The notes under the pieces are model-generated. The model was not told the DNA's origin. It saw nothing but the letters and a program-made list of their open reading frames with translations, and made no database searches. Below are positions 20,747-54,543 of a stretch of 64,000 bases of DNA, piece after piece. A program made the position numbers and the translations under genes. The number at the start of each line of letters is the position of its first letter. The stretch's first letter is position 1. The DNA lies in contig NZ_CP109444.1 in assembly GCF_036227225.1 (NCBI RefSeq), positions 11,885,501 to 11,949,500 of the forward strand, read 5' to 3'. The DNA comes from Streptomyces sp. NBC_01478. Its GTDB lineage: Bacteria; Actinomycetota; Actinomycetes; Streptomycetales; Streptomycetaceae.

Positions 20747-20803
20747 CGAAACTCCTTCACGAGGCGCCTGGGCCCCGCAACCGCTGTCCACAACTCCGTT
20801 TTT

Positions 20804-20823
20804 TGATATCCCGTGATATCCCG
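20804..20823. promoter_or_regulatory. Tandem GATATC-containing 10-bp repeat
   Basis: TGATATCCCG is repeated twice back to back, each copy containing the palindrome GATATC. It lies 58-77 bp upstream of the zinc-ribbon/HTH gene pair and within the 311-bp divergent region before the CreE-like gene (20747-21057). That region also has TTGACG at 20894 and a GACTCGAGTC palindrome at 20922-20931. This is a candidate operator for one or both directions. Confidence 0.45.
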
Positions 20824-21057
20824 TGCCGATCAAGGCAGTTGACCCGGCGCTTTCCTCCGCCGGAGGCGGGCGCAACAGCCCCTGGCGGTCCCTTGACGGT
20901 TCCTTCCATTACCCGACGGGTGACTCGAGTCCCGATACAGCCCCGTTCGCGAACACGCCGGTGAAATGCGCTCCCCGATTCCTCAAGGCCTTTTCCACCC
21001 GCAGCCGAGCCCTGGTCGAGCGCCGGCGCCCACGGTGGCCGCAGGAAGGGAGGAACT

Positions 21058-23307
21058 GTGGACGGTACGCACGCAGGCGAACGCGCAGTAGACGCCGGAC
21101 TCCTCGCAGGGCCGCTCGTCACGACGGCTGATACGACGGCCGATGCGACGGCCGGTCGGTTTCCCCCGGGCGGGGCCCGTCCGCCCGGGGACCCCCACCC
21201 GCGCGCCGCCGCACCGCCGCCCGGCGGCGGCACCGCGGCGGCGCATCTGGAGGTGTGCCTGGTCGGTGCCGGACCCCGGGGCCTTTCCGTACTGGAACGG
21301 CTGTGCGCGCAGGAACGGAAGTCGCCCCGATGGGACACCGTCACCGTGCATGTCGTCGACCCCGACCCGCCGGGCTCGGGCCGGGTGTGGCGCCCCAGCC
21401 AGTCGCGGCACCTGCTGATGAACACCGTCGCCTCGCAGGTGACGGTCTACACCGACGCCAGCGTCCGCATCGACGGCCCGCTGGAGGAGGGGCCGAGCCT
21501 GTACGAGTGGGCCCGCGCCCTGGAGTCGGGCACCCTGGAGAGCTGCCCCGGACCGGTGGCCGGCGCGGACATCCTCACCGAGGCGCGCGCCCTGGGCCCC
21601 GACACCTATCCCACCCGCGCCCTCTACGGCTCCTATCTCACCTGGGCGTTCGGGCGGGTCGTCGCGAACGCCGCCGCGCATGTGCGGGTGCGTGTCCACG
21701 CGGCGCGCGCCGTCGCCCTCACCGACGCCGACGGCCGGCGGGCCGGGCGCCAGAGCGTCACCCTGGAGGACGGCACCCGGCTGGGCGCTCTGTCCGCGGT
21801 CGTCCTGGCGCAGGGCCACGTACCGGCACGGCTCTCGCCCACCGAGCGGCGGCTGGACCGTTTCGCCGCCCGGCACGGCCTGACCTACGTGGCCCCCGCC
21901 AACCCGGCCGACGTGGACCTCTCCTTCGTACGGCCCGGCGAGAGCGTGCTGCTGCGCGGGCTGGGCCTCAACTTCTTCGACCACATGGCCCTGTTCACCC
22001 GGGGCCGGGGCGGCGTCTTCACCCGCACCGGCGGGCGTCTGGTCTACCGGCCCTCGGGCCGCGAGCCGCGCCTGTACGCCGGATCGCGGCGCGGGGTGCC
22101 CTACCAGGCGCGCGGCGAGAACGAGAAGGGCGCCCACGGCCGCCACCGCCCCCGGCTGCTGACGGCCGGCTGCATCGCCGCCCTGCGCGCGGGGGACCGG
22201 CGCAGCACGGCCGTCGACTTCGCCGCCGACCTGTGGCCGCTGATCTCCAAGGAGGTGTGCGCCGTCTACTACGCCGCCCTGCTGGTGCGGCGCGGCGAGG
22301 CGGCCGCGGCGGCCGAGGAGTTCACCGAGCGCTACCTGCACGCCGAGCCGGGCGCGGCCGAGGACCGCCTGCTCGACGAAGCCGGCATCGCCGCGGCCGA
22401 GCGCTGGGACTGGGAGCGCCTGGCCCGCCCCTACGGCACCCGCGGCTTCCGCGACCTGGCGGCCTTCCGCACCTGGCTGCGCGGGCATCTCGACGAGGAC
22501 GTCCGCCTGGCCCGCCAGGGCAACGTCAGCGGACCGGTCAAGGCGGCCCTGGACGTGCTGCGCGACCTGCGCAACGAGGTCCGGCTCGCCGTCGACCACG
22601 CCGGCCTGTCCGCCGCCTCCCACCGCGAGGACCTGGAGGGCTGGTACACCCCGCTCAACGCCTACCTCTCCATCGGCCCGCCGGCCTCGCGGATCGAGGA
22701 GATGGCCGCGCTCATCGACGCCGGCGTCCTGGAGGTGACCGGCCCCGGCCTGCGGGTGAGCGCCCAGGCGGACGACCCGGAGGGCCCCTGCTTCCTGGCG
22801 ACCTCCGACATCCCCGGCGTACAGGTCCGGGCCGGCGTCCTCATCGAGGCCCGGCTGCCCGCGATCGACCTGCGGCGCACCGCCGACCCGCTGATGAACC
22901 AACTGCTGCGCACCGGCCAGTGCCGCCCCTACCGCATCCCCGCCGCCGACGGCCCCGGCACCGGCCCCGGCAGCACCGACACCGGCAGCGGAACGGGGTA
23001 CGAGACGGGGGGACTGGAGGTGTCCGAGCGGCCCTACCGCCTCGTCGACGCCCGCGGGGTGCCCCACCCGCGCCGCTTCGCCTACGGGGTGCCCACCGAG
23101 TCCGTGCACTGGGTGACCGCCGCGGGCATCCGGCCCGGCGTCGGCTCGGTCACCCTGGAGGACTCCGACGCCATCGCGGCGGCGGTCCTCGCCGTGCCCC
23201 AGGCACCCGCGCCCCTGCGCCGGCCGGCCTGGGCCGGAACAACTCCCGTGCCCCCAAGCCCCGTCACGGCCCCGGTCACGGCCCCGAGCGCGAAGGCAGG
23301 CGCATGA
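21058..23307 (+). CDS. creE: CreE-like FAD monooxygenase (aspartate to nitrosuccinate)
   Basis: A 749-residue flavoprotein. After a Gly/Pro/Ala-rich N-terminal extension of about 60 residues comes the dinucleotide fold (EVCLVGAGPRGLSVLERL), then GRVWRPSQSRHLLMNTVASQVTVY and a long Ala-rich C-terminal part. This layout matches the N-oxygenases of cremeomycin (CreE) and related clusters that oxidise the amine of L-aspartate to nitrosuccinate. The GTG start follows GGAAGGGAGG. The decisive context is the overlapping CreD-like lyase (ATGA), since the pair together produces nitrous acid. Family membership is inferred from sequence style and pairing, not from a search. Confidence 0.82.
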   Translation: MDGTHAGERAVDAGLLAGPLVTTADTTADATAGRFPPGGARPPGDPHPRAAAPPPGGGTAAAHLEVCLVGAGPRGLSVLERLCAQERKSPRWDTVTVHVVDPDPPGSGRVWRPSQSRHLLMNTVASQVTVYTDASVRIDGPLEEGPSLYEWARALESGTLESCPGPVAGADILTEARALGPDTYPTRALYGSYLTWAFGRVVANAAAHVRVRVHAARAVALTDADGRRAGRQSVTLEDGTRLGALSAVVLAQGHVPARLSPTERRLDRFAARHGLTYVAPANPADVDLSFVRPGESVLLRGLGLNFFDHMALFTRGRGGVFTRTGGRLVYRPSGREPRLYAGSRRGVPYQARGENEKGAHGRHRPRLLTAGCIAALRAGDRRSTAVDFAADLWPLISKEVCAVYYAALLVRRGEAAAAAEEFTERYLHAEPGAAEDRLLDEAGIAAAERWDWERLARPYGTRGFRDLAAFRTWLRGHLDEDVRLARQGNVSGPVKAALDVLRDLRNEVRLAVDHAGLSAASHREDLEGWYTPLNAYLSIGPPASRIEEMAALIDAGVLEVTGPGLRVSAQADDPEGPCFLATSDIPGVQVRAGVLIEARLPAIDLRRTADPLMNQLLRTGQCRPYRIPAADGPGTGPGSTDTGSGTGYETGGLEVSERPYRLVDARGVPHPRRFAYGVPTESVHWVTAAGIRPGVGSVTLEDSDAIAAAVLAVPQAPAPLRRPAWAGTTPVPPSPVTAPVTAPSAKAGA

Positions 23308-24866
23308 CCTCCTCCTGGCAGTCCCCGCAGTCCCCGCAGTCCCCGCAGTCCCCGCAGTCCGGGCGGTCTCCGCGGTCCCTGCCGCCCGCGGCCCTGTCCG
23401 CCCATCTGGACGCCGGGCTGCTGTCACCGGTGCGGGCGGGCACCCCGGTCGAGGCGGCCGTCGGCGACGGCGCGTGGCTGCAGGCGATGCTGGACGCGGA
23501 GGCGGCGCTGGCCCGCGCGCAGGCCCGCCTGGGCACGGTGCCCGCCCGGGCGGCGGCCGCCGTCACCGCGGCGGCCCGCGCGGAGCTGTTCGACGTACGC
23601 GAACTCGCCCTGGCCGCGCGGGAGACCGCCAACCCGGTGGTGGGCCTGGTCAAGGCGCTGACCGCGCGGGTCGCCCAGGACTGCCCGGCCGCGGCCGAGT
23701 ACGTGCACCGCGGCTCCACCAGCCAGGACGTCCTGGACACCGGCGCGATGCTGGTGGCCGCCCGCGCGCTGCGCCTGATCGTCGCGGACCTGCGGGCCGT
23801 CGCCGACGCCCTGGCCGCCCTGGCGGCCGGGCACCGCGACACGGTGATGGCGGGCCGCACCCTGGCCCTGCACGCGGTGCCCACGACCTTCGGTCTCAAG
23901 GCGGCCGGCTGGCGCCGCCTCGTCCTGGACGCCGCCGACCGCCTCGGCCGCCTCGCCGACGGCGGGCTCCCGGTGTCGCTCGGCGGCGCGGCCGGCACCC
24001 TGGCCGGCTATCTGCAGTACGCGGATCCGGGCACCGACCCTGCCGTCCTGGCGACGGCCCTGACCGAGGCCTTCGCCGAGGAGACGGGCCTGGCCGCACC
24101 GGTGCTGCCCTGGCACGCGCTGCGCACCCCCCTCGCCGATCTGGCGGCCGGCCTCGCGCACGCGGCCGGGGCGCTCGGCAAGATCGCCGCGGACGTGCTG
24201 GTGCTGGCCCGTACCGAGATCGGCGAGGTGGCCGAGCCCGCCGTCGCCGGACGGGGCGCGTCCTCGGCGATGCCGCACAAACGCAACCCCGTGCTGGCGA
24301 CCCTGATCCGCTCCGCCGCCCTGCAGGTGCCCGCGCAGGCGACCGTCCTGATGCAGTGCCTGGCCGCCGAGGACGAACGCTCGGCCGGGGTGTGGCACGC
24401 GGAGTGGCAGCCGCTGCGCGAGTGCCTGCGGCTGACCGGCGGCGCCGCGCACACGGCCCTCGAACTCGCCCGCGGCCTGACCGTCCGCCCCGAACGGATG
24501 CGCGCCAACCTCACGGCCACCGGCGGACAGCTCCTCTCGGAGCGCGTCTCGGCCGTCCTGGCCCCCCGGCTGGGCCGGACGGCGGCCCGGGAACTCCTCA
24601 CCCGCGCCTCCCTGCTCGCCACCCGCACCGGCCTCCCGCTCGCCGACGTCCTGGCCGGCCTCCCGGAACTGGCCGGCGTCCTCACCCCCCAGGAGGCGAC
24701 GGCCCTGTTCGACCCGGCCGGCTACACCGGCGCCGCCGCGGCCCTGGTGGACCGCTCCCTCGCCCTGCCCGGCCCCACCGCCACCGGCCCCGCCACGGGC
24801 TCCGGCCAGGGCATGGGTTCCGGTACGGGTGCGGTGGCGGCGCCGTCCGGCGGACACGGCGCCTGA
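23304..24866 (+). CDS. creD: CreD-like nitrosuccinate lyase (fumarase superfamily)
   Basis: A 520-residue member of the fumarase/adenylosuccinate lyase superfamily. The signature GASSAMPHKRNPV contains the mobile catalytic-loop Ser, and VHRGSTSQDVLDT is the second conserved region. In CreE/CreD pairs the lyase splits nitrosuccinate into fumarate and nitrous acid; alone it could be mistaken for a carboxymuconate cycloisomerase. It overlaps creE by 4 bp. A 9-bp tandem DNA repeat (four copies at 23321-23356) adds a Gln-Ser-Pro repeat near the N-terminus, and a Gly/Thr tail extends the C-terminus. Confidence 0.85.
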   Translation: MTSSWQSPQSPQSPQSPQSGRSPRSLPPAALSAHLDAGLLSPVRAGTPVEAAVGDGAWLQAMLDAEAALARAQARLGTVPARAAAAVTAAARAELFDVRELALAARETANPVVGLVKALTARVAQDCPAAAEYVHRGSTSQDVLDTGAMLVAARALRLIVADLRAVADALAALAAGHRDTVMAGRTLALHAVPTTFGLKAAGWRRLVLDAADRLGRLADGGLPVSLGGAAGTLAGYLQYADPGTDPAVLATALTEAFAEETGLAAPVLPWHALRTPLADLAAGLAHAAGALGKIAADVLVLARTEIGEVAEPAVAGRGASSAMPHKRNPVLATLIRSAALQVPAQATVLMQCLAAEDERSAGVWHAEWQPLRECLRLTGGAAHTALELARGLTVRPERMRANLTATGGQLLSERVSAVLAPRLGRTAARELLTRASLLATRTGLPLADVLAGLPELAGVLTPQEATALFDPAGYTGAAAALVDRSLALPGPTATGPATGSGQGMGSGTGAVAAPSGGHGA

Positions 24867-25453
24867 CGGCGCCTCACCCGCCGGGCCGGACGGCTTCGCC
24901 CACTGGACCTGCTGGACCCGCTGCCCGCGACGGCGCCTGCGGCATCCACCGGCCGGCCCGGCACCCGGGTGCCCGCCGGTCCGGCCGCCGGCGTCCGTCG
25001 TACCTGCCGTCCGCGACGGTGCTCCGCCTGCGACGGCGCCCCGGGCACCCCGGCCCTGCGCCCGGGTGTCCACCGGGCCCGGCACTCGGCCCGCCCCCCG
25101 GGCGTGCGCCCCCGATCCGGCACCGGACCGACGCGCGGGCCCCGGCCCCGGCCTCCGGGCCCCCGCCCGGGCCCCCGCAACGGGGGCCGGCACCGCCCCT
25201 CGGCCCGCCCCCCCCGCAACCGGCCCCGGAATACGTCCCGGCCCGGTTTTCCCCCTGGTCGCGCCCCTGTCGCCGGAGTCCTGCCGGAGTCCTTCTCGAA
25301 TCCTCCCGGAGTCCGTCCACAGCCTCGCCGGAGTCCGGCTCGAGGCGTGCTGGAGGCGTGCTGGAGAGGTGGTCCCCGGGCGGTCGAAGCGGCCGTCGGG
25401 GGGTGTCGGGGCGCCGCATGATGAAGGCACAACGAGCAGGGAGGGCAGCCGAG
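24867..25453. other. Intergenic region carrying the 11-bp repeat array
   Basis: About 590 bp between the CreD-like gene and the FAD oxygenase. Its first 400 bp are GC-rich with no supported gene; then comes the phased repeat array at 25276-25374 and a probable ribosome binding site at 25438-25444. Confidence 0.7.
25276..25374 (+). promoter_or_regulatory. Nine-unit 11-bp-phased repeat array (SARP-type operator)
   Basis: Nine successive 11-bp units begin GAGTCC, GAGTCC, GAATCC, GAGTCC, CAGCCT, GAGTCC, GAGGCG, GAGGCG and GAGAGG at 25276, 25287, 25298, 25309, 25320, 25331, 25342, 25353 and 25364. The flanks often read CCG before the unit. Direct repeats spaced one helical turn apart are the hallmark of SARP binding sites, though three or four copies are usual. 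The array ends 79 bp before the TTG start of the FAD oxygenase. Confidence 0.7.
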
Positions 25454-27085
25454 TTGAGTGCATACGCGGGGGCCGGCGCGGGTGGTGGCCACGGGCGTGC
25501 CGTGGTGATCGGCGCCGGTCTCGCCGGGCTCACCGCGGCACGGGCCCTGGCCGGCTTCATGGACCACGTCACGGTGATCGAGCGCGACTGGGTGCCCTCC
25601 GGACCGGGGCGGCGTCCGGGTGTGCCCCAGGCCCGGCACACCCATGTGCTGGTGCCGGCCGCCCATCAGGGGCTGGAGCGGCTGTTCCCCGGCATCGGCC
25701 AGGACCTGGCCGCCGCCGGGGCGGTCCGCGTCACCGTGCCCAAGGACATGCTGGTGCTGGGGCCGGGCGGCTGGCTGCCCCGCTTCGACGCCGGCCTGCC
25801 GCTGCTCTGCGCCGGCCGCGACCTGATCGACGCGGTGGTGCGGGCGCGGCTGCGCGCCGACCCGAAGGTGGACTTCCTGCCCGGGCACGAGGCCGTCGCC
25901 CTGCGCGGCGGCCGCCACGACACCGTCACCGGCGTGTGGATACGCGGCCGCGACCGCACCGCCCCCGACAGCAGGGGCGGGCCGGGCGTACGGCGTCTGC
26001 TGCCGGCCGAGTTCGTGGTGGACGCCTCCGGCCGCGGCTCCCAGGCCTCCCGCTGGCTGGCCGAACTCGGCTACGGGCAGCCCCCGTTGAGCGTGGCCGC
26101 CGCCCCGGCCGCCTTCGCCACCGCCGTGTTCGCCCCGCCGGTGGGCCATGTCGCCGACTGGAAGAGCCTGCTGCTCATGGCCGCGCCCGGCCATCCGCGC
26201 CAGGGCGTCCTGCACCCCGTCGAGGGCGGCCGCTGGTCGGTGACCCTCACCGCCGCCGGCACCGCCCGCCCGCCGGCCGGCCACGCCGGGCTGCTGCACG
26301 CCGCGCGCGCCCTGCGCCACCCGCTGCTGCACGACGTCCTCGAGGCCGCCACCCCGCTGGGCCCGGTCTACGGCTGCACCCGCGCCGGCGTCCGCTGGCA
26401 CCGCTACGAGAAACTGCGCCGCTGGCCCGACCAGTTCCTGGTGGTCGGCGACGCGCTGGCGGACCTGGACGCGGCCGGCGGCCAGGGCATGGCGCTGGCC
26501 GTGCGGTGCGCGCTGGCGCTGGAGCAGTTACTGGCCGGCCACGGCACGGCCGTCGGCATCAGCCACCGGCTGCGCCACGCCCTGGCCCGCGAGGTGGCCC
26601 CCGCCTGGCGGACGGCCCGCCGCACCCCCGGCACGGCACACCCCCCGCACGCCCCGAACACCCCGGGAACGGCAGGCACTTGGGACACGGCGGGCACGGC
26701 GGCCGCGGACCGGCAGGCGGCGGCGGCGTCGCAGGACGGCCCGCCGCGCCCCCCTCTCACCGCCCGGTACACGGCCTGGTACGCGGCCCGTGTCGCGGCC
26801 GCCGCGACCACCGACCCGTACGCGGCCACCCTGCTGCTGCGCACCCTGCACGCCCCCGGCACCCCGCCGGCCCCGGCCGCGGCGCTGCGGCCGCGCGCGC
26901 TGCGGGCCGCCCTGCGCACCCCGCGCGGCCCCGCCCCGTACGCGCCCCCCAGCACCACCCACGGCCCCGACGCGCCCCGCCGCCGCACCGCACCGGCACC
27001 CGCCCGCCCGGTCCCGGCCGGTGCCCCGCGCCCCGCCGCACCCGCGCCCGCGGCGGCCCCCGCCGGTGAGCGGAGGCGGCCGTGA
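25454..27085 (+). CDS. FAD-dependent aromatic/polyprenyl monooxygenase
   Basis: A 543-residue flavoprotein. AVVIGAGLAGLTAARALAG is the FAD-binding fold and GDALADLDAAGGQGMALA the second FAD contact; RRPGVPQARHTHVLVPAA places it with the 2-polyprenyl-6-methoxyphenol-hydroxylase-like enzymes. The last 120 residues are Ala/Pro-rich. The TTG at 25454 is chosen because AGGGAGGG lies 9 bp upstream; ATG 25421 is possible but has no site. Codon 26528-26530 is TTA, so expression may require bldA. Likely roles are hydroxylation of the naphthoquinone or oxidation of the prenyl chain. Confidence 0.8.
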   Translation: MSAYAGAGAGGGHGRAVVIGAGLAGLTAARALAGFMDHVTVIERDWVPSGPGRRPGVPQARHTHVLVPAAHQGLERLFPGIGQDLAAAGAVRVTVPKDMLVLGPGGWLPRFDAGLPLLCAGRDLIDAVVRARLRADPKVDFLPGHEAVALRGGRHDTVTGVWIRGRDRTAPDSRGGPGVRRLLPAEFVVDASGRGSQASRWLAELGYGQPPLSVAAAPAAFATAVFAPPVGHVADWKSLLLMAAPGHPRQGVLHPVEGGRWSVTLTAAGTARPPAGHAGLLHAARALRHPLLHDVLEAATPLGPVYGCTRAGVRWHRYEKLRRWPDQFLVVGDALADLDAAGGQGMALAVRCALALEQLLAGHGTAVGISHRLRHALAREVAPAWRTARRTPGTAHPPHAPNTPGTAGTWDTAGTAAADRQAAAASQDGPPRPPLTARYTAWYAARVAAAATTDPYAATLLLRTLHAPGTPPAPAAALRPRALRAALRTPRGPAPYAPPSTTHGPDAPRRRTAPAPARPVPAGAPRPAAPAPAAAPAGERRRP

Positions 27086-27645
27086 ACACCCCGCCCCGCA
27101 CCCGGTCCCACGAGGTGTCCCGCACGACGAGAGTGGAGAAAGTGAACCGACCAGCCGCCCAGGAAGCCGGACCGGCGGGCCCCGCCCCGGCCCGCACCCC
27201 CGACAGGGCAGACAGCACAGGCCAGTTGGGCACAGAGGAGAGCGGCACACCCCCGCGACACCCCCACCCCGCCCGCCGACCGGCCCCGCCGTATGCCCGC
27301 CGTGTCCCGGCCGCGCCGCATCATCCCTGCGGCCCGGTCCTGCCGTACCACCACGGTGTCCCGTCCCCGGCCGTCTTCCCGCCCGGCGGCAGGGCCCGTC
27401 CCGTACCGCCGCAGGCAGCCCGCGCCGCCCGGCGGCCGGCCCCGCCGTACCACCACCGCGGCCTGTTCCCGCCGTACGGCCACCGTGTCCCGGCCCCGGC
27501 CGTCCGCCCGCCCGCGGGCCGGACCGGCCGGCCGGCGCCGCCGCAGACCACCCGCGCCACCCGCACCACTCATGTCACCGGTATCACCTGTACGACCCGT
27601 ACCGGCCACAGCGTCCGGCGGTCAGAGGAAGGGGCACGGGCATGA
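27082..27645 (+). CDS. Pro/Arg-rich protein coupled at both ends
   Basis: A 187-residue frame whose GTG overlaps the FAD oxygenase stop (GTGA) and whose TGA overlaps the qcrB start (ATGA). GGAGGCGGCC precedes the GTG. The protein is rich in Pro, Arg, Ala, His and Tyr, with repeated RRPAPPY and PPYHH/PPYGH units and no recognisable domain. The double overlap is what argues that it is translated, perhaps chiefly to couple qcrB to the oxygenase; composition alone would not. Confidence 0.45.
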   Translation: MNTPPRTRSHEVSRTTRVEKVNRPAAQEAGPAGPAPARTPDRADSTGQLGTEESGTPPRHPHPARRPAPPYARRVPAAPHHPCGPVLPYHHGVPSPAVFPPGGRARPVPPQAARAARRPAPPYHHRGLFPPYGHRVPAPAVRPPAGRTGRPAPPQTTRATRTTHVTGITCTTRTGHSVRRSEEGARA

Positions 27646-29450
27646 CCGGCACCGATGCATCCCCCCGCAGCTCGCGCACCGCGCCCTCGCGGGGTGAGCG
27701 GGTCGCCGACTGGACCGACGGGCGGCTGGGGATCTACAACTTCCGTTTCCTGGTGCGCAAGGTGTTCCCCGAGCACTGGTCGTTCATGTTCGGCGAGATC
27801 GCCCTCTACAGCTTCGTCGTGCTGCTGGTGACCGGGATCTGGCTCACGCTCTTCTTCGACCCGAGCATGTCCGAGACGGTCTACAACGGCTCCTACGCCC
27901 CGCTGCACGGCGTACGGATGTCGCAGGCCTACGCCTCCACCGTGCACATCAGCTTCGAGGTGCGCGGCGGCCTGTTCATCCGCCAACTGCACCACTGGTC
28001 GGCGCTGACCATGATCGGCGCGCTGTGCCTGCACACCCTGCGCCACTTCCTGACCGGCTCGTTCCGCAAGCCGCGCGAGCTGAACTGGCTGTTCGGCTTC
28101 ACGCTGCTGGTGCTGGTCACCCTGGAGGGCTTCGTGGGCTACTCGCTCCCCGACGACCTGCTCTCCGGCACCGGCCTGCGCATCGCCGAGGGCGTCACCC
28201 TGGCCATCCCGCTGGTGGGCACGTACCTGTCGATGTTCCTGTTCGGCGGGGAGTTCCCGGGCCACAACGTGATCGGCCGGTTCTACGGCTTCCACATCCT
28301 GCTGATCCCGGGCATCGTCGTGGCGCTGCTGACCGTGCACCTGATCCTGGTCTTCTACCACAAGCACACCCAGTTCCGGGGGCCTGCCCGCACCGAGAAG
28401 AACGTCGTGGGCCAGCCCCTGTTCCCGCACTACACGGCCAAGGCCGGCGGCTTCTTCTTCATCATCGCCGGGGTGCTCTCGCTGCTGGCGGGCATCGCGC
28501 AGATCAACCCGGTGTGGACCTACGGCCCCTACCGCGCGGACCAGATCTCCCAGGGCTCCCAGCCCGACTGGTACATGGGTTTCCTGGAGGGCGCCCTGCG
28601 GGCCATGCCGGCCTGGGAGTTCAGCCTCGGCGGGTACACCGTCAACCTCGGCATCCTGATCCCCGCCGTCATCGTGCCCACCCTGATGATGGCCGTGATC
28701 GCGCTGTGGCCGTTCCTGGAGGCCTGGGCCACCGGGGACCGGCGCGAGCACCATCTCCTGGACCGGCCGCGCGACCACCCCACCCGCACCGCGTTCGGCG
28801 TCGGCTTCGTCGCCCTGTACCTGGTGCTGTTCTTCGGCGGCGCCAACGACGTGCTGGCCCAGGAGTTCCACCTGTCCCTGAACCAGATCACCTGGTCGGT
28901 GCGGATCGGCGTGTTCGCCGTCCCCGCGCTCACCTATGTCCTCACCCGGCGGATCTGCCTGGGCCTGCAGCGCCGTGAACGCGACACCCTCCTGCACGGC
29001 CGCGAGACCGGCCGGATCCGGCGGCTGCCCGACGGCGAGTTCGTCGAGGTCCACGAACGCCTGGACCGGCAGCGGGAGTACGCGCTGCTGGCCCGCAGGG
29101 CCTACACCCCGCTGCCCGCCCCCACCGCCGAACACGACGGCGTCCCCAACCCCGCCCGGCGCGGCCAGGCGCTGCGCCACCGCCTCAGCCGCTGGCTCTA
29201 CGGCAACCAGATCGCCAAGCCCACCCCGCAGGAGATGCGGGAGGCCCTGGCCCACCTCGGCCACCCGGACGACGGCCACGCCGCGCTCGGGGGCCCCGCC
29301 GCCTCCAACGGCCACATCTCCTCGCCCAACGGCAACGCCAACGGCCACGGCCCGACCGCGTCCGAGCCCGCGTCCGCGTCCGCGTCCGCGGATTCCGGCG
29401 TACGGCGGGGCCGCGCCGGGGAGCGGGAGGCGGACCAGGAACTGCACTGA
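27642..29450 (+). CDS. qcrB: Cytochrome b subunit of the bc1 complex, stand-alone paralogue
   Basis: A 602-residue membrane protein of the actinobacterial QcrB type, the quinol-binding subunit of the respiratory bc1 complex. Haem-ligand pairs are visible at H118/H131 and H218/H233, and the Qo-site motif reads P-D-W-Y (residues 308-311), as usual in actinobacteria. About eight hydrophobic segments are followed by the conserved LGLQRRERDTLLHGRETG tail. The C-terminus has an extra Gly/Asn/His/Ala-rich 70 residues. No qcrA, qcrC or oxidase genes accompany it, so it is a second copy inside a biosynthetic cluster. Prenylated hydroxynaphthoquinones are known bc1 inhibitors, so self-resistance is a strong inference. 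ATG 27642 follows GAGGAAGGGG. Confidence 0.93.
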   Translation: MTGTDASPRSSRTAPSRGERVADWTDGRLGIYNFRFLVRKVFPEHWSFMFGEIALYSFVVLLVTGIWLTLFFDPSMSETVYNGSYAPLHGVRMSQAYASTVHISFEVRGGLFIRQLHHWSALTMIGALCLHTLRHFLTGSFRKPRELNWLFGFTLLVLVTLEGFVGYSLPDDLLSGTGLRIAEGVTLAIPLVGTYLSMFLFGGEFPGHNVIGRFYGFHILLIPGIVVALLTVHLILVFYHKHTQFRGPARTEKNVVGQPLFPHYTAKAGGFFFIIAGVLSLLAGIAQINPVWTYGPYRADQISQGSQPDWYMGFLEGALRAMPAWEFSLGGYTVNLGILIPAVIVPTLMMAVIALWPFLEAWATGDRREHHLLDRPRDHPTRTAFGVGFVALYLVLFFGGANDVLAQEFHLSLNQITWSVRIGVFAVPALTYVLTRRICLGLQRRERDTLLHGRETGRIRRLPDGEFVEVHERLDRQREYALLARRAYTPLPAPTAEHDGVPNPARRGQALRHRLSRWLYGNQIAKPTPQEMREALAHLGHPDDGHAALGGPAASNGHISSPNGNANGHGPTASEPASASASADSGVRRGRAGEREADQELH

Positions 29451-38386: not shown

Positions 38387-38401
38387 ACGGAGATGACCAC
38401 G

Positions 38402-39556: not shown

Positions 39557-39688
39557 CCCCCGCCCCGTCACCCCCGACACGCCCGTGGTCCTGCGGTTTC
39601 GGCGCCCCCCCCGCACCGCATGCCGCCGCCCCGCATGCGGCCCCGCCCCGCCCGCCCCGCAGCGTGCCCCCGAAGGAGACACACCCCT

Positions 39689-42407: not shown

Positions 42408-42433
42408 GCCGGCACCCGACCGAAGGAGCAACG

Positions 42434-44790: not shown

Positions 44791-44821
44791 CGACGGCCGG
44801 CGCCGACCACTTGGAGTTTTG

Positions 44822-45875: not shown

Positions 45876-47399
45876 ATGGAGACACAGAGCGCGGCACCCG
45901 CGGCCGGGCCGAGCTCGGGGCCGGCCGCCGCCAACCCGCGACGGTGGCTGATCCTCGCCGTCATCTGCACCGCCTACCTCATGGTCGGTGTCGACCTGAC
46001 CGTGGTGAACCTCGCCCTGCCCTCCGCACAGCAGGCCCTGCACTTCACCGACGCCGACCGGCAGTGGATCGTCACCGCCTACGCGCTGCCCTTCGGCAGC
46101 CTCCTGCTGTTCTGCGGACGCCTGTCCGACCTGATCGGCCGCAAGCAGACCTTCCTCATCGGCCTCAGCGGCTTCGCGGCCGCCTCCGCCGTCGGCGGCG
46201 CCGCCACCAGCTTCGGGATGCTGGTCACCGCCCGCGCCTTCCAGGGCGCCTTCGCCGCGATGCTGGCACCGGCCGCACTGGCCCTGCTGGCGACGACGTT
46301 CACCGACCCGAAGGAGAAGGGCAAGGCCTTCGGCATCTTCAGCGCGGTCGCCGCCGCCGGCACCGGCCTGGGACTCATCCTCGGCGGGGCACTGACCTCC
46401 GGCCTGAACTGGCGCTGGTGCCTCTACATCAACCTCCTGTTCGCCGGCCTCGCCCTCGTCGGCGGCCTGCTCCTGCTGGAGCGCCAGCCCAAGACCGGCG
46501 CCCGGATGGACATCCCCGGCGTCCTGCTGGCCTCGGGCGGCATGTTCTGCGTGGTCTACGGCTTCTCCAACGCCGCCGAGCACAGCTGGCACACCCCCTC
46601 CACCTGGGGCGTCCTGGCTGCCGGCGCGGCACTGCTGCTGCTGTTCTCCTTCTGGCAGACCCGCGCCTCCCACCCGCTGCTGCCGCCCCGGGTCGTCCTG
46701 GACCGCAACCGCGCAGGCGCCTACCTCACCACCCTGTTCGTGGGCACCGGCACCTTCGGCGTGATGCTGTTCCTCGTCTACTACATGCAGACCGACCTCG
46801 GGTACTCGGCCATCGAGTCCGGCATCGCCCTGCTGCCGATGCTCGTGTTCACCGCGGTCGGCGCCAACGTCAGCGCCGTCAAACTCATGCCGAAGTACGG
46901 ACCGCGCCCGCTGGTCACCACCGGCCTGCTGCTGGGCGCGGCCGGCATGGCCTGGCTGACCGGCATCGGCCTCGACTCCGGCTACGCCGCCCACCTGATG
47001 GGCCCGGTCACCGCCGTGGGCCTGGGCCTGGGCCTCATCTACGGCGCGGCCCTGCGCACCGGCACCGCCGGAGTGGCCCTCAAGGACACCGGCATCGCCT
47101 CCGCGTGCGTGAGCACCGGCCAGCAGCTCGGCGGCGCCATCGGCACCGCCCTGCTCAACACGATCGCCGCGACCGCGACCGGCACCTGGTTCGAGGACCA
47201 CGTCCAGTCCACCCCCACCGCGCGCCAGGTCCACCTCGCCTCCATCCACGGCTACACCACCGTCTTCTGGTGGTGCACCGCCGTCTTCGTCGCCGGCGCG
47301 GTCATCGCCGGCCTGATGCTGCGCAGCGGCCCGCTGCCCGCACCCCAGGCCGCCCCGGCCGCCCGGCCCGCCACGAAGCCCGAGGCCGCACAGGCCTGA
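45876..47399 (+). CDS. DHA2-type (EmrB/QacA) MFS exporter
   Basis: A 507-residue, 14-segment MFS protein. WLILAVICTAYLMVGVDLTVVNLALPSAQQAL is the typical first segment (motif D) and GRLSDLIGRKQTF the loop 2-3 motif A. This family exports antibiotics by proton antiport, so product efflux is the likely task. It carries its own ECF41-type promoter, linking it to the sigma factor at 52113. AGGGAGA precedes the ATG. Confidence 0.93.
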   Translation: METQSAAPAAGPSSGPAAANPRRWLILAVICTAYLMVGVDLTVVNLALPSAQQALHFTDADRQWIVTAYALPFGSLLLFCGRLSDLIGRKQTFLIGLSGFAAASAVGGAATSFGMLVTARAFQGAFAAMLAPAALALLATTFTDPKEKGKAFGIFSAVAAAGTGLGLILGGALTSGLNWRWCLYINLLFAGLALVGGLLLLERQPKTGARMDIPGVLLASGGMFCVVYGFSNAAEHSWHTPSTWGVLAAGAALLLLFSFWQTRASHPLLPPRVVLDRNRAGAYLTTLFVGTGTFGVMLFLVYYMQTDLGYSAIESGIALLPMLVFTAVGANVSAVKLMPKYGPRPLVTTGLLLGAAGMAWLTGIGLDSGYAAHLMGPVTAVGLGLGLIYGAALRTGTAGVALKDTGIASACVSTGQQLGGAIGTALLNTIAATATGTWFEDHVQSTPTARQVHLASIHGYTTVFWWCTAVFVAGAVIAGLMLRSGPLPAPQAAPAARPATKPEAAQA

Positions 47400-47615: not shown

Positions 47616-49058
47616 ATGACGACGCCCCCGCGCTCTCCCGCCGGCTTCGCCTTCGACTTCGACCGCGGCAACTTCTACCGGGACCTGATCGCCGCCGCCG
47701 GCGACTCCTCCGGGCAGCAGCAGGCCATCGCCCCCCAGGACGTGTCCCTGATCGTCTGGGTCCAGGCCGTCATGTGGGCCGCGCGCTTCGACGCCCTGGC
47801 GCCCTACCACCCCACCGCCGTCGGCGTCCACGCCCGCATCGAGCGCCGTCCCGCCGCCGAACGGGCCACCAACCGCAACAAGAACATCGCCGCCCTGTAC
47901 GCCTCCTCCCACGTGGCCAACGCCGTCTATCCCGAACGCGAACACGTCATGCGCCAGATGATGACCGTGCTGGGCCTGGACCCCGACGACACCGCACCCG
48001 ACCCCACCACCCCGGCCGGCATCGGCACCCTCGCCGCAGCGGCCGCCGTCCGCGCACACGCCCACGACGGCATGAACTTCCTCGGCGACCAGGGCCGCAC
48101 CCACCACGGCCACCCCTTCGAGGACTACACCGGCTACCGGCCCGCCAACACCGCCCACGAGCTGACCGACCCGGCCCGCTGGCAGCCCGCGTCCCGCCCG
48201 CACCGCCGCCGCGCCGGCGGCGGACCCGGCGACAAAGGCGCCTTCACCGTCCAGCAGTTCCTCACCCCGCAACTGCGCCTGACCACCCCCTACACCTACC
48301 GGGACCCCGCCCGCTTCGAGCTGGCCCCGCCCGAGCACACCCGCCACCCCGACGCCCCCGCCTACCGGCACAGCGCCGACGAGGTCCTGGCCGCCTCGGC
48401 CGCGCTCGGCGACGAGCAGAAGGCGGCCGCGGAGTTCTTCGACAACACCTACCTCAGCGTCCTGCAGTCGACGAAGGCCGCCGGCCTGGCCCACGACGCG
48501 GACCTCGACCTGGACGGCTGGGTCCAGTTGCTGTTCACCAGCTCCGTCGCCCAGCTCGACGCGCTGATCGCCGCCTGGCACCACAAGCACGCCCACGACG
48601 CCGTCCGCCCCTTCAGCGCGATCCGGCACGTGCACGGCGACAGCCCGGTCACCGCCTGGGGCGGCCCCGGCAGGGGCACGGTCGAGGACCTGCCCGCGAG
48701 CGAGTGGGCCGGCTATCTGCCCCCGGGGGACAGCCCCGAGTACCCCTGCGGCACCACGACCCTGATCGCCGCCGAAGGCCAGGCCGCACGGCGCTTCCTC
48801 GGCGACGACATCCTGGACTGGACCCACACCGTCCCCGCCGGCTCCACCCTGACCGAACCCGGGACCACCCCCGAGAAGGACGTCGACCTGCACTACGCCA
48901 CCTGGAGCGACTTCGCCCGGGAGTGCGCCCGCAGCCGCGTCTGGGCCGGCTCCCACTTCCCCGAGACCACCGAACGCTCCCTCCGCTTCGGCACCCAGTT
49001 CGGCGACCGGGCCCACGACTTCGTCCAGCGCCACGTCAACGGCGACCCCGGCCACTGA
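47616..49058 (+). CDS. Vanadium-dependent haloperoxidase (NapH/Mcl24 type)
   Basis: A 480-residue protein of the vanadium haloperoxidase/PAP2 superfamily. Of the consensus motifs KX6RP, PSGH and SRX5HX3D, the first is intact (K324 to R331-P332), the second reads Y-P-C-G-T at residues 376-380, and the third is S440-R441-x5-H447-x2-E450. In napyradiomycin and merochlorin pathways such enzymes chlorinate naphthoquinones and drive terpene cyclisation with H2O2 and chloride. Only one is present here. The altered second motif may mean a changed reaction. AAGGATGAGG precedes the ATG. Confidence 0.9.
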   Translation: MTTPPRSPAGFAFDFDRGNFYRDLIAAAGDSSGQQQAIAPQDVSLIVWVQAVMWAARFDALAPYHPTAVGVHARIERRPAAERATNRNKNIAALYASSHVANAVYPEREHVMRQMMTVLGLDPDDTAPDPTTPAGIGTLAAAAAVRAHAHDGMNFLGDQGRTHHGHPFEDYTGYRPANTAHELTDPARWQPASRPHRRRAGGGPGDKGAFTVQQFLTPQLRLTTPYTYRDPARFELAPPEHTRHPDAPAYRHSADEVLAASAALGDEQKAAAEFFDNTYLSVLQSTKAAGLAHDADLDLDGWVQLLFTSSVAQLDALIAAWHHKHAHDAVRPFSAIRHVHGDSPVTAWGGPGRGTVEDLPASEWAGYLPPGDSPEYPCGTTTLIAAEGQAARRFLGDDILDWTHTVPAGSTLTEPGTTPEKDVDLHYATWSDFARECARSRVWAGSHFPETTERSLRFGTQFGDRAHDFVQRHVNGDPGH

Positions 49059-51083: not shown

Positions 51084-51836
51084 GTGAGCAGGACCGAGGA
51101 GTTCGAGCAGGCACGGCCCCTGCTCTTCGCGATCGCCTACCGGATCCTGGGCAGCCTCGACGGGGCCCGGGACGCCGTGCACACCGCCCGGCAGCGCTAC
51201 GAGGCCGCCCCCGCCGTGCCCGCCGAGCCGCGGGCCTTCCTGTCGGACCTGGTCACCCGGATCGCGGCGGACATGCCGCGCACGGCCCCCGTCCGGGACG
51301 GGGAACACACCGGGCCGCCCCCGCCCGCACCCCCGCCCGCCGACCCCTTCCAGGACCTGGGAGAGCCGGCCGGGCCGCTGTCGGCGTCGGCGGCGGCCGC
51401 CCTGCTGCTGGAGCGGCTGCCCCCGCCCGCCCGCGCGTTCTTCGTCCTGCGGGAGGTCTTCGGACGCACCCTCGCGCAGACCGCGTCGGTGGTGGGCTGC
51501 TCACCGGCGGTCTGCCGCCGTCTGGCCGCCGCCGTCGCCGAGGCGGGCGACACGGTGGGCGGGGCACGGCCCTGGCCCGGACTGATCGCCGGCTCCGCAC
51601 CGGTGGCCCGAGTCCTGGCCGCCGTCGTCCCGGCACTGCTCGCCGTCGGCGTCACCATGGAGCCGCGGCCCCACGGCTCCCGCCCCGGCGCGGTCTTCCG
51701 CGGCACGGACGGCACCGTCCTGGGCGCCCTGACCCTCGACATCCTCGACGGCCGCATCCAGACGGTCCGCTGGGGCGCACCCCCCGCCCCGCCGGCCGTA
51801 CCGGCCCGCCCCCCGCTCCCGGATTCCGCCCCGTGA
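51084..51836 (+). CDS. Degenerate ECF41 sigma-factor paralogue
   Basis: A 250-residue protein whose start (MSRTEEFEQARPLLFAIAYRILGS) and end (VTMEPRPHGSRPGAVF ... TLDILDGRIQTVRWG) clearly match the sigma factor encoded next. Region 2 is poorly kept, the WLPEP and DGGGK motifs of ECF41 are absent, and the first half of the C-terminal SnoaL-like domain is missing; region 4 (RAFFVLREVFGRTLAQTASVVGCSPAVCRRLA) remains. The frame is open, so it may be a working antagonist or decoy rather than debris. The GTG start follows AGGAGGGG. Confidence 0.8.
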   Translation: MSRTEEFEQARPLLFAIAYRILGSLDGARDAVHTARQRYEAAPAVPAEPRAFLSDLVTRIAADMPRTAPVRDGEHTGPPPPAPPPADPFQDLGEPAGPLSASAAAALLLERLPPPARAFFVLREVFGRTLAQTASVVGCSPAVCRRLAAAVAEAGDTVGGARPWPGLIAGSAPVARVLAAVVPALLAVGVTMEPRPHGSRPGAVFRGTDGTVLGALTLDILDGRIQTVRWGAPPAPPAVPARPPLPDSAP

Positions 51837-51917: not shown

Positions 51918-52112
51918 CCGGACTCAGAACACCCCGCCCCGCCCAGCCCCGCGACGACCACCGCCAAGAAGGCCGATATGCCGCACCCCGACCACCGCTC
52001 CCGCACCACCGCCGACCCGCTACGCTCCCGGCAGACAGCACCGGGGCGGCCGGCGCCGGACAGGGCGGGCGCCGCGCACCCGGCGGCGCCAGGGCTTCCC
52101 GAAGGAGCCGGC

Positions 52113-53063
52113 ATGAGCAGGACCGAGGAGTTCGAGGAACTGCGGCCCCTGCTGTTCTCGATCGCCTACCGCATCCTGGGCAGCGTCAGCGAGGCCGAGG
52201 ACGCGGTCCAGGAGTCCTGGCTGCGCTTCACCGCCTCCCCGACCCAGCCCCGCTCCACCAAGGCCTTCCTGTCGACCACCGTCACCCGCATCTCCATCGA
52301 CGTGCTGCGCTCGGCCCGCGCACGGCGCGAGGTGTACGTCGGCCAGTGGCTGCCCGAGCCCCTGCTGGCCGACCCCTACGAGGACCCGGCACGCTCCGCG
52401 GAACTGGCCGACTCGCTCTCCATGGCGGCCCTGCTGCTGCTGGAGAGGCTCTCCCCGCTGGAGCGGGCGGTGTTCGTCCTGCGGGAGGTGTTCTCCTTCG
52501 GCTTCCCCGAGATCGCCTCGGCCCTGGACCGCTCCGAGGCCGCCTGCCGCCAGCTCGTGGTCCGCGCACGGCGCCACATGGAAGAGGGCCGGCCCCGCTT
52601 CGAGGCCGACCGCCAGGAACGCGAGCACCTCGCCGGGCGCTTCTTCGACGCCGTCCGCGACGGCGACGTCGCGTGCCTGCGCGACCTGCTCGCCGCCGAC
52701 GCGCAGATCGTCGGGGACGGCGGCGGCAAGTCCCCGCAGTTGGCGAAGGCCGTCGTCGGCGCCGACAACGTCGCCCGCCTCCTCGCCTCCTACTTCCCGC
52801 CGCTGCTGAGCGTCGACGTCACCATGGAGCCGCACGAGGTCAACGGCCAGCCCGGCGCGATCTTCCGCGACCGCGACGGCAGGGTCCTCAACACCTGGAC
52901 CCTCGACGTCCTGGACGGACGGATCCAGACGATCCGCTCGGTCAGCAACCCCGACAAGCTCGGCCACCTGGGCCCGGTCGCGGACGCCTGGGCCGTCAGC
53001 CGCGAGGCCAACCGGGCCCGCAGGCAGGCCGGCCGGGAATTCCCGCCCGGGGAAAACGGATAA
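52113..53063 (+). CDS. sigJ: ECF41-type sigma factor (SigJ-like)
   Basis: A 316-residue ECF sigma factor with region 2 (about 15-85), region 4 (about 120-175; EREVFSFGFPEIASAL-type helix-turn-helix) and a SnoaL-like C-terminal extension. The ECF41 hallmarks WLPEP (GQWLPEPLL) in the linker and DGGGK in the extension are present. In this group the extension tunes activity without a classic anti-sigma factor, and the genomic partner is often a carboxymuconolactone-decarboxylase-like or oxidoreductase gene; one lies at 56255-56728. GAAGGAG precedes the ATG. Confidence 0.92.
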   Translation: MSRTEEFEELRPLLFSIAYRILGSVSEAEDAVQESWLRFTASPTQPRSTKAFLSTTVTRISIDVLRSARARREVYVGQWLPEPLLADPYEDPARSAELADSLSMAALLLLERLSPLERAVFVLREVFSFGFPEIASALDRSEAACRQLVVRARRHMEEGRPRFEADRQEREHLAGRFFDAVRDGDVACLRDLLAADAQIVGDGGGKSPQLAKAVVGADNVARLLASYFPPLLSVDVTMEPHEVNGQPGAIFRDRDGRVLNTWTLDVLDGRIQTIRSVSNPDKLGHLGPVADAWAVSREANRARRQAGREFPPGENG

Positions 53064-53268
53064 ACCCCTGGGAAACAACGGAGGAGCAATCGAGAAAAAG
53101 CGGGGCGGTAACTGAGCAATATCGGCGGTGACACCACCCCGACGCCCCCTGCACCCTGGTTCATGAACGCGCTCGGCGGCCGGAAGAGAACTCCCCACCG
53201 GAACCTTCCGCACGGAAACTCTTCACGCGACCCGCGAGCGCCGCCACATCGACTGGGGAAGGTCTCGT

Positions 53269-54543
53269 ATGTCGTCCACTCTGCTCGGGATTTCTGACGA
53301 TTTCGACGTCATCGTCATCGGCGGCGGACCCGCCGGTGCGACCACCGCGGGGCTGCTCGCCCAGCGCGGGCGCCGCGTTCTCGTACTCGACCGTGAACGC
53401 TTTCCCCGCTATCACGTCGGGGAGTCCCTCATCCCCGGATTCATGCTGCCCATGGAGGAACTCGGCCTGACCGAGCGCATGGAAGCCAGGGGATTCGAAC
53501 GCAAATACGGCGGCACACTGGTGTGGGGAAACAACGAGATCCCCTGGAACTTCTCGTTCTCCACCGGCGGCCGCATCCCGTACTCCTACCACACACGCCG
53601 CGCCGACCTGGACACGATGATCCTGGACCGGGCCCGCGAACTCGGCGTCACCGTCGTCGAGGAAGCGACCGTCAAGGACACCCTCGAACAGGACGGCCGC
53701 GTCGTCGGCGTCACCTACACACTGCGCGGCCTGCCCGGCGTCCAGGAGGCCAGGGCGTCCCTGGTCATCGACGCCTCCGGCCAGGCCCGCGTCATCGGCC
53801 GCAGGTACTCCGAGATCAACTGGCACGACCAGTTGCAGAACGTCGCGGTGTGGACGTACTTCGACGGCTGCCACCGCCTGCCCGGCGACGAGTGGAGCAA
53901 CATCCTCATCGAGGGCATCAAGGACGGCTGGTTCTGGGGCATCCCCATCGACAAGGGCGTCTTCAGCGTCGGCTACGTGACCCGCTCCGCCACCGCCAGC
54001 GCCGCCGACGCCTCCATGGAAGACCTCTTCGCCTCCGAACTCGCCCAGACCACCAAGCTCAAGGAACTCCTCAAGGACGCCCACCAGACCTCGGGCTACC
54101 GCACCGCCCGCGACTGGTCCTACACCAACGAGCGTTTCTACGGCAACGGCTGGGTCCTGGTCGGCGACGCCGCCGCCTTCGTCGACCCGCTCTTCTCCAC
54201 CGGCGTCGCCCTGGCGACCATGGCCGGCAGCACCCTGTCGAAGATCGTCGACACCATCCTCGAACACCCGGAGATCGAGGAGAAGGCACTGGACCGCTAC
54301 GCCACCGCCTACCGCGACTTCTTCGGCGACATCCGCTACTTCGTGGAGCAGTTCTACGACCGCTCCAAGAGCAAGGGCTTCTACTGGAGCCTGGCCCAGG
54401 AGATCACCGACCCCGGCCGGGAGAACGCCAACGAGGTCGACTTCGTCAAGCTGATCTCCGGGCTCAGCGGCAAACACGCCCTGTTCAACCTCGAGTTCGA
54501 CGACCTCATCGCGGACGCCGAAGCGGCCCCCGCCGCCGGCTGA
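53269..54543 (+). CDS. FADH2-dependent halogenase (NapH2/CmlS-like)
   Basis: A 424-residue flavoprotein. VIVIGGGPAGATTAGLLAQRG is the FAD fold; the halogenase signature WxWxIP is present as WFWGIP (about residues 221-226), followed by the GDAAAFVDPLFSTGVALA segment. The similarity is to halogenases acting on carrier-bound or phenolic substrates and to NapH2 of napyradiomycin, whose task is unsettled. It could chlorinate the naphthoquinone alongside the vanadium enzyme. GGGGAAGG precedes the ATG. The 205 bp upstream (53064-53268) show no promoter I can name. Confidence 0.85.
   Translation: MSSTLLGISDDFDVIVIGGGPAGATTAGLLAQRGRRVLVLDRERFPRYHVGESLIPGFMLPMEELGLTERMEARGFERKYGGTLVWGNNEIPWNFSFSTGGRIPYSYHTRRADLDTMILDRARELGVTVVEEATVKDTLEQDGRVVGVTYTLRGLPGVQEARASLVIDASGQARVIGRRYSEINWHDQLQNVAVWTYFDGCHRLPGDEWSNILIEGIKDGWFWGIPIDKGVFSVGYVTRSATASAADASMEDLFASELAQTTKLKELLKDAHQTSGYRTARDWSYTNERFYGNGWVLVGDAAAFVDPLFSTGVALATMAGSTLSKIVDTILEHPEIEEKALDRYATAYRDFFGDIRYFVEQFYDRSKSKGFYWSLAQEITDPGRENANEVDFVKLISGLSGKHALFNLEFDDLIADAEAAPAAG

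Follow-up and report, generated by a model that had tools for sequence, protein, structure and literature searches.

Gene content and genomic context of the cluster

The window analysed here, a stretch of 64,000 nucleotides from Streptomyces sp. NBC_01478 (G000:C1:11885501-11949500; the genome is a single contig of 12,124,816 bases), holds between positions 11064 and 56170 one gene cluster for a meroterpenoid based on 1,3,6,8-tetrahydroxynaphthalene (THN or T4HN). The cluster is real and complete, and its most informative new feature is a linked, stand-alone gene for the cytochrome bc1 subunit QcrB (27639..29450, plus strand); neither this gene nor that of a MonCI/LasC-type flavin epoxidase (25418..27085, plus strand) had been mentioned in the first-pass annotation of this DNA. 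Genes were called from GC-frame and open reading frames, with start positions that are approximate, and families were assigned with Pfam and NCBIfam scans and by best PDB relatives, most of them scoring far above the curated cut-offs.

At the core lies a THN synthase, a type III polyketide synthase (36617..37684, plus strand, likely start 36617), which matched PDB entry 1u0m, which we take to be the THN synthase (THNS) of S. coelicolor, with 558.7 bits and has an intact Cys-His-Asn triad (C138, H270 and N303), confirming both the family and the triad read earlier. It is followed on the same strand by a cupin oxygenase (37769..38386; PF07883), assigned to THN oxidation by analogy with furaquinocin and napyradiomycin, a DegT aminotransferase (38393..39556; PF01041, 309 bits), assigned to 8-aminoflaviolin formation by analogy, an AMP-forming ligase (39620..41332; PF00501), a C-methyltransferase of the Fur6 family (41337..42407; 73% identity over 99% to Fur6, P0230), an irregular cis-prenyl diphosphate synthase (cis-PT; 42431..43087) and an ABBA aromatic prenyltransferase (44819..45742; PF11468, 157 bits; PDB 7fhe/1zb6, ~187 bits). 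Pfam placed the cupin, aminotransferase, ligase, methyltransferase and ABBA families where they had first been named. Upstream, also on the plus strand, are genes for a CreE-like aspartate N-oxygenase (nitrosuccinate synthase; 21058..23307; NAD_binding_9, 141 bits) and the nitrosuccinate lyase CreD (23304..24866; equivalog NF052556, 794.7 bits, cut-off 650); of the CreE/CreD pair originally named, CreD stands, and CreE is represented by a FAD-NAD(P) domain match without an NCBIfam model. The families bear out what the first-pass annotation had proposed, a hybrid THN meroterpenoid cluster that combines amination, a supply of nitrous acid and an irregular prenyl synthase.

When pieces of the window were compared with the rest of the genome, those at 300-1500, 27639-29450, 38393-39556, 42305-44532 and 53269-54543 each had a 100% identical copy in inverted orientation near the other chromosome end, the innermost at C1:237808-239008 on the minus strand. 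Such an arrangement would be expected of a terminal inverted repeat of ~239 kb or more with the cluster inside it, and because the compared pieces all have these identical inverted copies, the genome probably holds the cluster in duplicate.

Related clusters in genomes and plasmids

Scanning GTDB genomes turned up 18 cis-PT loci, which we searched by tblastn with 31 window genes over flanks of at most 10 kb, contig ends concealing genes in many of the 18. In S. actinomycinicus RCU-197, 26 of the 31 genes recur with their order preserved (57-92% identity), with no matches to Uma2, g31986, TnpB, CMD and SSF, and DH24 and S. fructofermentans matched 25 and 22 of the 31, respectively. Because of this shared order and the high family scores, the gene set is more than a chance assembly. 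An 87.6-kb plasmid of Streptomyces sp. NBC_00493 carries, as read from its annotation, counterparts of the whole cluster in the same order, the cupin being absent from its (incomplete) gene table. On the AD2-2 plasmid the cis-PT (94%), QcrB (91%) and halogenase (98%) were matched directly, the CreD match was in four pieces and that to THNS had 73% coverage; its other genes were read from annotation. The gene combination had at first been held to be without parallel among characterised clusters; the same set recurs in close uncharacterised clusters, and its uniqueness is rejected given the syntenic copies in S. actinomycinicus, NBC_00493 and other plasmids. No description of this cluster or its syntenic copies was found in the open PMC literature.

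An IS605-type TnpB gene (49249-50439, minus strand) lies between the genes for a vanadium peroxidase homologue and two sigma-like proteins. It had no tblastn match in the 18 related loci and a 25% match in G266, and no TnpB occupies this place in S. actinomycinicus or on the NBC_00493 plasmid, which has a TnpB elsewhere in its cluster.

A cluster-linked QcrB

The window QcrB (NF050120, 732 bits, cut-off 500) keeps His 118, 132, 219 and 234, presumably the haem ligands, as well as the PDWY motif. Ten of the 12 Streptomyces genomes in which cis-PT loci lie carry a QcrB that is 73-92% identical to it (hereafter cluster-type), and all other QcrBs found in these 12 genomes have at most 63% identity, save for a tail piece belonging to the G405 cluster copy. 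The cluster-type gene lies within ~5 kb of a CreD match on one contig in 8 of the 10; in S. fructofermentans the distance is 16 kb, and in B93 the gene has THNS as its neighbour. The two genomes without it, G400 (CNH099) and G406 (S. aculeolatus), do have extra QcrBs, which we rejected as cluster-type since they belong to another clade and are not beside window-type genes. In a tree of 38 sequences, the 14 cluster-type QcrBs from genomes form one clade (support 100/99). The epoxidase gene adjoins QcrB in 7 of the 8 QcrB-bearing stretches read (six clusters and G399, the exception being G301).

In a sample of 392 genus genomes, drawn from a larger genus, cluster-type QcrB was found in seven, six of which have DegT and four a cis-PT; DegT was found in 25, and its co-occurrence with QcrB gave P = 2.4e-7, in a Fisher test that, like those below, ignores relatedness. 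Plasmids gave a similar association: 14 of 72,556 records have a QcrB of at least 74% identity, a cut-off set after seeing the gap to the next match at 61% (all 18 records of at least 60% were covered), and all 14 hold THNS (at least 84%), DegT (at least 77%) and CreD (at least 65%), although some of these records are near copies of one another, two S. xanthophaeus entries looking near-identical. The four genes lie within ~26 kb in 13 of the 14, DegT being ~84 kb from QcrB in the S. camelliae record. All five plasmid records with the cis-PT and all seven with the halogenase fall among these 14, and one of the 15 DegT records, NZ_CP109481, is without such a QcrB. A linkage of QcrB to CreE/CreD alone was considered and rejected: of the 30 plasmid records that hold CreD of at least 65%, 16 have no cluster-type QcrB.

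We also compared the quinone sites of QcrB, mapping positions by hand to the M. tuberculosis protein through an M. smegmatis alignment and the residues named in PMC8616580, with residues near the C-terminal gap and Leu180 omitted. Eleven housekeeping-type copies served as reference, of which L115 was classed by viewing its neighbours by eye and the other ten share its clade; in the window's own genome the housekeeping qcrB lies at 3.44 Mb beside ctaE-like and trpD-like genes (neighbours likewise named by eye). Against these 11, the menaquinol site differs at 7 of 17 positions versus 69 of 395 overall (P = 0.017), and the other quinone site at none of six. At position 316, which corresponds to the Q203 hot spot Thr313, all 14 cluster copies carry Leu, and the 11 housekeeping-type copies all carry Ser or Ala; replacement of Thr313 by Ala makes M. 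tuberculosis resistant to Q203 (PMC8616580). The linkage of QcrB is strong and the pocket evidence weak. QcrB is an extra, co-localised and cluster-conserved copy, as looked for in target duplication. Our search of open PMC papers found none linking qcrB with self-resistance, and the bc1-resistance papers found there gave, in the excerpts seen, none on a biosynthetic cluster.

Further stand-alone QcrB clades were seen in Streptomyces (L009-L011 in the window's own genome, and L087, L088, L096 and L102), L010 and L011 lying beside a nitroreductase-like gene (by eye); these clades might mark other bc1-directed metabolites.

Amination and nitrous-acid module

The amination-plus-diazotisation module is a conserved part of the clusters for furaquinocin, naphterpin and furanonaphthoquinone, and napyradiomycin clusters have it as well (PMC12670698); because it is known from all of these we regard the amination and nitrous-acid chemistry of the window as a shared early pathway rather than a novelty. 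A CreE-like gene adjoins CreD in 6 of 6 searched clusters that have both. In S. galbus, a CreE-like gene (L036, 6637-8589; 80%) is directly before AraC and prenyl synthase genes with no CreD alongside, CreD and QcrB being on another contig. In the 392 genus genomes, all seven with the cis-prenyl synthase have the aminotransferase somewhere in the genome; in the cis-PT genomes G047, G104 and G183, DegT is 33-54 kb off. Methylation is expected to be on carbon, because the methyltransferase is 73% identical to Fur6.

Irregular prenyl synthase

The cis-PT scored 332 bits against Mcl22 (5xk3) and 320 bits against cyclolavandulyl diphosphate synthase (CLDS), with the next class at 75 bits, which by its sequence places it in the Mcl22/CLDS branch and not among ordinary cis-prenyl synthases; 5XK9, which has the same sequence row as 5xk3, is named as Mcl22 in PMC7839719. 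A midpoint-rooted tree of 121 rows split (92/88) into a side of 83 rows, holding the named CLDS sequences P0086 (CL190) and P0030, and one of 38 rows, in which Mcl22 and the window enzyme fall within one group of 35 (98/94). The window enzyme is in a 13-row subclade (84/76; inner five rows 100/97), separate from the 21-row subclade of Mcl22 (100/99), and no characterised enzyme is among the names displayed for it. The enzyme had been called CLDS-like; the tree does not support a CLDS assignment and places it, as a probable irregular head-to-middle synthase, on the Mcl22 side.

The clusters of DH24, S. galbus, MMG1121 and MZ04 have CLDS-side synthases, those of S. fructofermentans and B93 Mcl22-type ones, and those of S. 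actinomycinicus, YIM 130001 and S. justiciae members of the window's subclade, and G266 has the backbone with no prenyl synthase match by tblastn. Because relatives carry either of three types or none, the side-chain gene appears to be exchanged within a conserved backbone. One metagenomic sequence, P0107, combines PTase_Orf2 and cis-prenyltransferase domains and points to a frameshift that joins adjacent genes, not to a genuine fusion.

Because their prenyl synthase is CLDS-side, the clusters of CNH099 (L029; presumably a MAR4 strain), G047 (L137-L138) and G183 (L143-L144) are better candidates than the window for the source of arromycin. Each of the three has an ABBA prenyltransferase, a Fur6-type methyltransferase and three VCPO genes besides the CLDS-side synthase, and THNS was seen in those of G047 and G183, with DegT 33-40 kb away. 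Arromycin, a THN with a cyclolavandulyl group, is without an assigned cluster according to the MAR4 review (PMC10897937).

Vanadium enzyme, flavin halogenase and epoxidase

The vanadium haloperoxidase family member (VCPO; 47616..49058, plus strand) has the domains expected from the first annotation. Its nearest solved relative is NapH3 (660 bits), followed by NapH1 (513 bits). In the alignment it has Thr at both positions of the NapH1 catalytic Lys and Ser, which we take to be Lys324 and Ser427 and which were placed by counting, and its PSG motif reads PCG, with Cys for Ser; it does retain the KxxxxxxRP stretch and the last-motif His. PCG also occurs in the L021, L024 and G399 copies; many other loci have PSGS copies. 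The NapH1 Lys and Ser have been used to filter out close non-halogenase homologues of the NapH3 and MarH2 kind (PMC12871659). Because of the Thr/Thr pair, the NapH3 likeness and this published criterion, we predict that the enzyme is non-halogenating and probably a NapH3-like rearrangement enzyme. The two halogenation systems once proposed are thereby reduced to one, the flavin halogenase, which stays plausible.

The latter (53269..54543, plus strand; PF04820, 144 bits) scored 400 bits against PDB 8zop and 258 bits against 3e1t, which we take to be CndH, and has Lys79 and GWFWGIP; an active-site Lys and a WxWxIP-type motif are flavin halogenase signatures, and the protein, which also has the FAD fold, is a candidate for such an enzyme. 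Orthologues of at least 66% occur in 12 of the 18 cis-PT genomes. The one in S. actinomycinicus (92%) has the same position as in the window, that in L023 comes directly behind the cis-PT, and those in L033 and L036 are downstream. Because of these orthologues and the L023 position, we regard it as linked and not accidental. In the 392 genus genomes it was found in 11, of which five have DegT (P = 2.5e-4), four the cis-PT (P = 1.1e-5) and six no DegT. The halogenase is thus an optional member of the cluster family that is found in other settings as well. The epoxidase candidate matched MonCI (202.6 bits) and Lsd18/LasC (174.7 bits) in the PDB, which we take to be polyether epoxidases, and probably epoxidises the prenyl chain.

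Mevalonate operon and accessory genes

A complete mevalonate operon lies at ~11064-19207 on the minus strand; the first-pass annotation was right to name it, though it falls outside the stretch 20747..54543 to which that annotation applied. In order of position it comprises a FabH-like condensing enzyme (11064..12050; Pfam ACP_syn_III_C, 97 bits; start approximate), from its position probably the acetoacetyl-CoA synthase; HMG-CoA synthase (12218..13393, start approximate; Pfam HMG_CoA_synt N and C in an open reading frame at 12218-14332, and annotated in the syntenic plasmid NZ_CP107868); HMG-CoA reductase (13390..14451; PF00368, 262.8 bits); type 2 isopentenyl diphosphate (IPP) isomerase (14448..15731; Pfam FMN_dh, with fni annotated in the syntenic plasmid); phosphomevalonate kinase (15536..17128, N-terminus over-extended; GHMP kinase domains and orthologue annotation); diphosphomevalonate decarboxylase (17008..18144; PF22700, 199.9 bits); and mevalonate kinase (18134..19207; GHMP kinase domains and orthologue annotation). 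Upstream of the operon is a conserved small protein (20081..20743, minus strand) without a Pfam match, 63-70% identical in four clusters and 58% in G266. Just beyond the operon, a large protein with a condensation domain of the non-ribosomal peptide synthetase type (2697-8402) and an S-adenosylmethionine synthetase (8599-9894) are encoded on the plus strand.

A DUF3099 protein follows QcrB (29773..30075, plus strand, start approximate; PF11298, 65.3 bits); the query used for it in the searches of relatives was in the wrong frame, with five stops, so that its matches are rough and the call rests on Pfam and the relatives' annotations. Between it and a Bcr/CflA-type exporter of the major facilitator superfamily (MFS; 33887..35194, minus strand; TIGR00710, 321 bits, cut-off 200.9; orthologues in S. 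actinomycinicus at 87%, DH24 at 79% and G266 at 74%) lie a Uma2 gene and further genes. The remaining genes are all on the plus strand: an AraC-family regulator (35695..36474; PF12833), a cation:proton antiporter (43261..44532; PF00999; 82-94% identity in 7 of the 18 cis-PT loci), a DHA2-type MFS exporter (45876..47399; family scans), a sigma-like helix-turn-helix protein (51084..51836; PF08281; 57% to L021, 51% to L024 and 52% to DH24), a SigJ-type sigma factor with a SnoaL-like domain (51978..53063; TIGR02957, 369 bits; SnoaL_2 below its cut-off) and an MFS transporter of the aromatic-acid type (54761..56170; family scans; 67-77% in S. actinomycinicus, DH24 and S. fructofermentans).

Proposed pathway, target and self-resistance

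From gene families, synteny and the clade and linkage of QcrB, we infer the reactions, their order, the product, its target and the protection of the producer. The mevalonate operon would supply dimethylallyl diphosphate and IPP, and the THN synthase would form THN, which the cupin and DegT enzymes would turn into 8-aminoflaviolin; CreE and CreD would furnish nitrous acid, and the AMP ligase would diazotise the amine, which would then be lost reductively or retained in side products. The Fur6-type enzyme would add a C-methyl group, the irregular synthase would make a branched head-to-middle C10 or C15 diphosphate whose prenyl group the ABBA enzyme would attach, the NapH3-like enzyme could shift it by alpha-hydroxyketone rearrangement, the MonCI-like enzyme may epoxidise the chain and the flavin halogenase could possibly add chlorine. 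Actinobacterial bc1 oxidises menaquinol, a prenylated naphthoquinone, and the hydroxynaphthoquinones atovaquone and buparvaquone are known bc1 inhibitors. The resulting branched-prenyl 2-hydroxy-naphthoquinone would resemble menaquinone and might block cytochrome bc1 at the site where menaquinol is oxidised; the cluster QcrB would then stand in for the housekeeping subunit and so protect the producer. Taken as a whole, this route, with a menaquinone-mimicking bc1 blocker and QcrB self-resistance, is our best explanation, and we hold it to be slightly better than an even bet; for its final part, that the product would block bc1 and that the cluster QcrB would protect against it, we see prospects between rather below even and just above.

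Several points weigh against this reading. Leu at position 316 also occurs in two non-cluster QcrB copies, and when the comparison is widened to all 24 non-cluster QcrBs only 1 of the 17 site positions differs (P = 0.75). Among the 25 DegT genomes, 19 are without a cluster-type QcrB, which therefore marks a subfamily and not the whole class. Stand-alone QcrBs of other clades are common, three of them in the window's own genome, so that an extra QcrB need not mean self-resistance, and an orphan copy in G301 (L108, G301:C135:48540-50192; 83%) has no other cluster gene in 77 kb save two weak MFS matches. That orphan is perhaps a leftover, or was acquired as protection. The diazotase role of the AMP ligase is proposed by position only, the protein scoring 82.8 bits against the AvaA6 diazotase model, far under the cut-off of 975, and the cluster family is known from genes alone in every strain. 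The rival reading is an ordinary THN cluster whose QcrB is a mere passenger, or a gene for electron transfer or respiratory adaptation that hitch-hikes near chromosome ends and on plasmids, an account that draws on the stand-alone paralogues, the same-clade orphan, the DegT genomes that manage without the gene and the weak pocket enrichment. We take it seriously as a possibility without thinking it probable, for QcrBs of one clade accompany the cluster in 10 of 12 genomes and, judged by identity, in all 14 plasmid records that carry such a QcrB and differ in cargo (5 with cis-PT, 7 with halogenase), and the epoxidase gene keeps its place beside it in 7 of 8 stretches.

Other alternatives concern the product rather than its target. 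An aminonaphthoquinone or diazonaphthoquinone, as first proposed, would be in keeping with the presence of CreE/CreD, DegT and AMP ligase genes, with the C8 amino group retained in flaviogeranins B and B1 (PMC7463872) and with the existence of diazo-napyradiomycins (PMC10897937). Yet the module works towards reductive deamination in furaquinocin (PMC12670698), for which reason an end product that retains nitrogen is possible but not favoured. Fur6 reportedly acts on deaminated pentahydroxynaphthalene (PMC12670698), and the window's methyltransferase belongs to its family. We think a nitrogen-bearing end product rather unlikely. A polychlorinated product of both the vanadium and the flavin enzyme might be argued from the VCPO domains, the KxxxxxxRP stretch and the retained His; with Thr for the NapH1 Lys and Ser, Cys for the PSG Ser and NapH3 as nearest relative, double halogenation is rejected as highly improbable. 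Scarcely more probable is that the flavin halogenase at 53269-54543 is part of something else: TnpB and two sigma-like genes do intervene after the VCPO gene, orthologues of at least 66% are absent from 6 of the 18 cis-PT genomes and 6 of the 11 genus genomes that have it are without DegT, but it keeps its position in S. actinomycinicus, directly follows the cis-PT in L023 and lies downstream in L033 and L036, and all seven plasmid records with a halogenase of at least 75% are among the 14 with QcrB and THNS.

Returning to the bc1 blocker with linked QcrB self-resistance, we tentatively extend it, with somewhat less than even confidence, to a widespread and partly plasmid-borne family of 2-hydroxy-3-(branched or cyclic prenyl)-naphthoquinones that would block the bc1 menaquinol site, each with a resistant QcrB and with the irregular prenyl synthase swapped between members, which would have one from the CLDS side, one of Mcl22 type, one like the window's or no such gene. 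Such compounds would be natural counterparts of the atovaquone/buparvaquone type. If QcrB is indeed for self-resistance, this class of prenylated naphthoquinones has a directly testable predicted target in cytochrome bc1, which is also that of the anti-tuberculosis candidates Q203 and TB47 (PMC8616580), and qcrB beside a THN synthase gene would be a genomic handle for further members. The several irregular prenyl synthase types in one backbone amount to a natural experiment in side-chain variation.

Comparison with known clusters

The napyradiomycin clusters share with the window a THN synthase, the napB1-4 genes for 8-aminoflaviolin and diazo formation, the C-methyltransferase NapB5, VCPO-type enzymes and the mevalonate pathway (PMC12670698 and PMC10897937), the window VCPO being closest to NapH3. 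Compared by description and not by alignment, the window adds an irregular cis-prenyl synthase, a MonCI-like epoxidase, a flavin halogenase and a linked QcrB, and its VCPO is without the NapH1-type Lys and Ser. To our knowledge, the furaquinocin cluster is without an irregular prenyl synthase, VCPO, halogenase, epoxidase or QcrB, all of which the window has. What the two share is the aminoflaviolin/diazo module (PMC12670698) and the C-methyltransferase that is 73% identical to Fur6.

With merochlorin, the window shares the cis-prenyl synthase lineage of Mcl22, the C-methyltransferase family (Mcl21) and a THN synthase (Mcl17). The merochlorin cluster also has VCPO genes. The window differs, again without alignment, in the subclade of its cis-prenyl synthase, in a single VCPO that lacks the halogenating residues, and in its flavin halogenase, QcrB and epoxidase. 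The marfuraquinocin (mfq) cluster has a T4HN meroterpenoid pathway, with 8-amino-flaviolin detected, and its MfqQ is a sigma factor with a SnoaL-like domain like that at 51978-53063 in the window (PMC12814520); in contrast to the window, it has a phenazine half, qcrB is absent from the main text of that paper and no irregular prenyl synthase appears in the text portions available. Close relatives of the window cluster, all uncharacterised, are found in S. actinomycinicus RCU-197 and on the plasmids of NBC_00493 and AD2-2.

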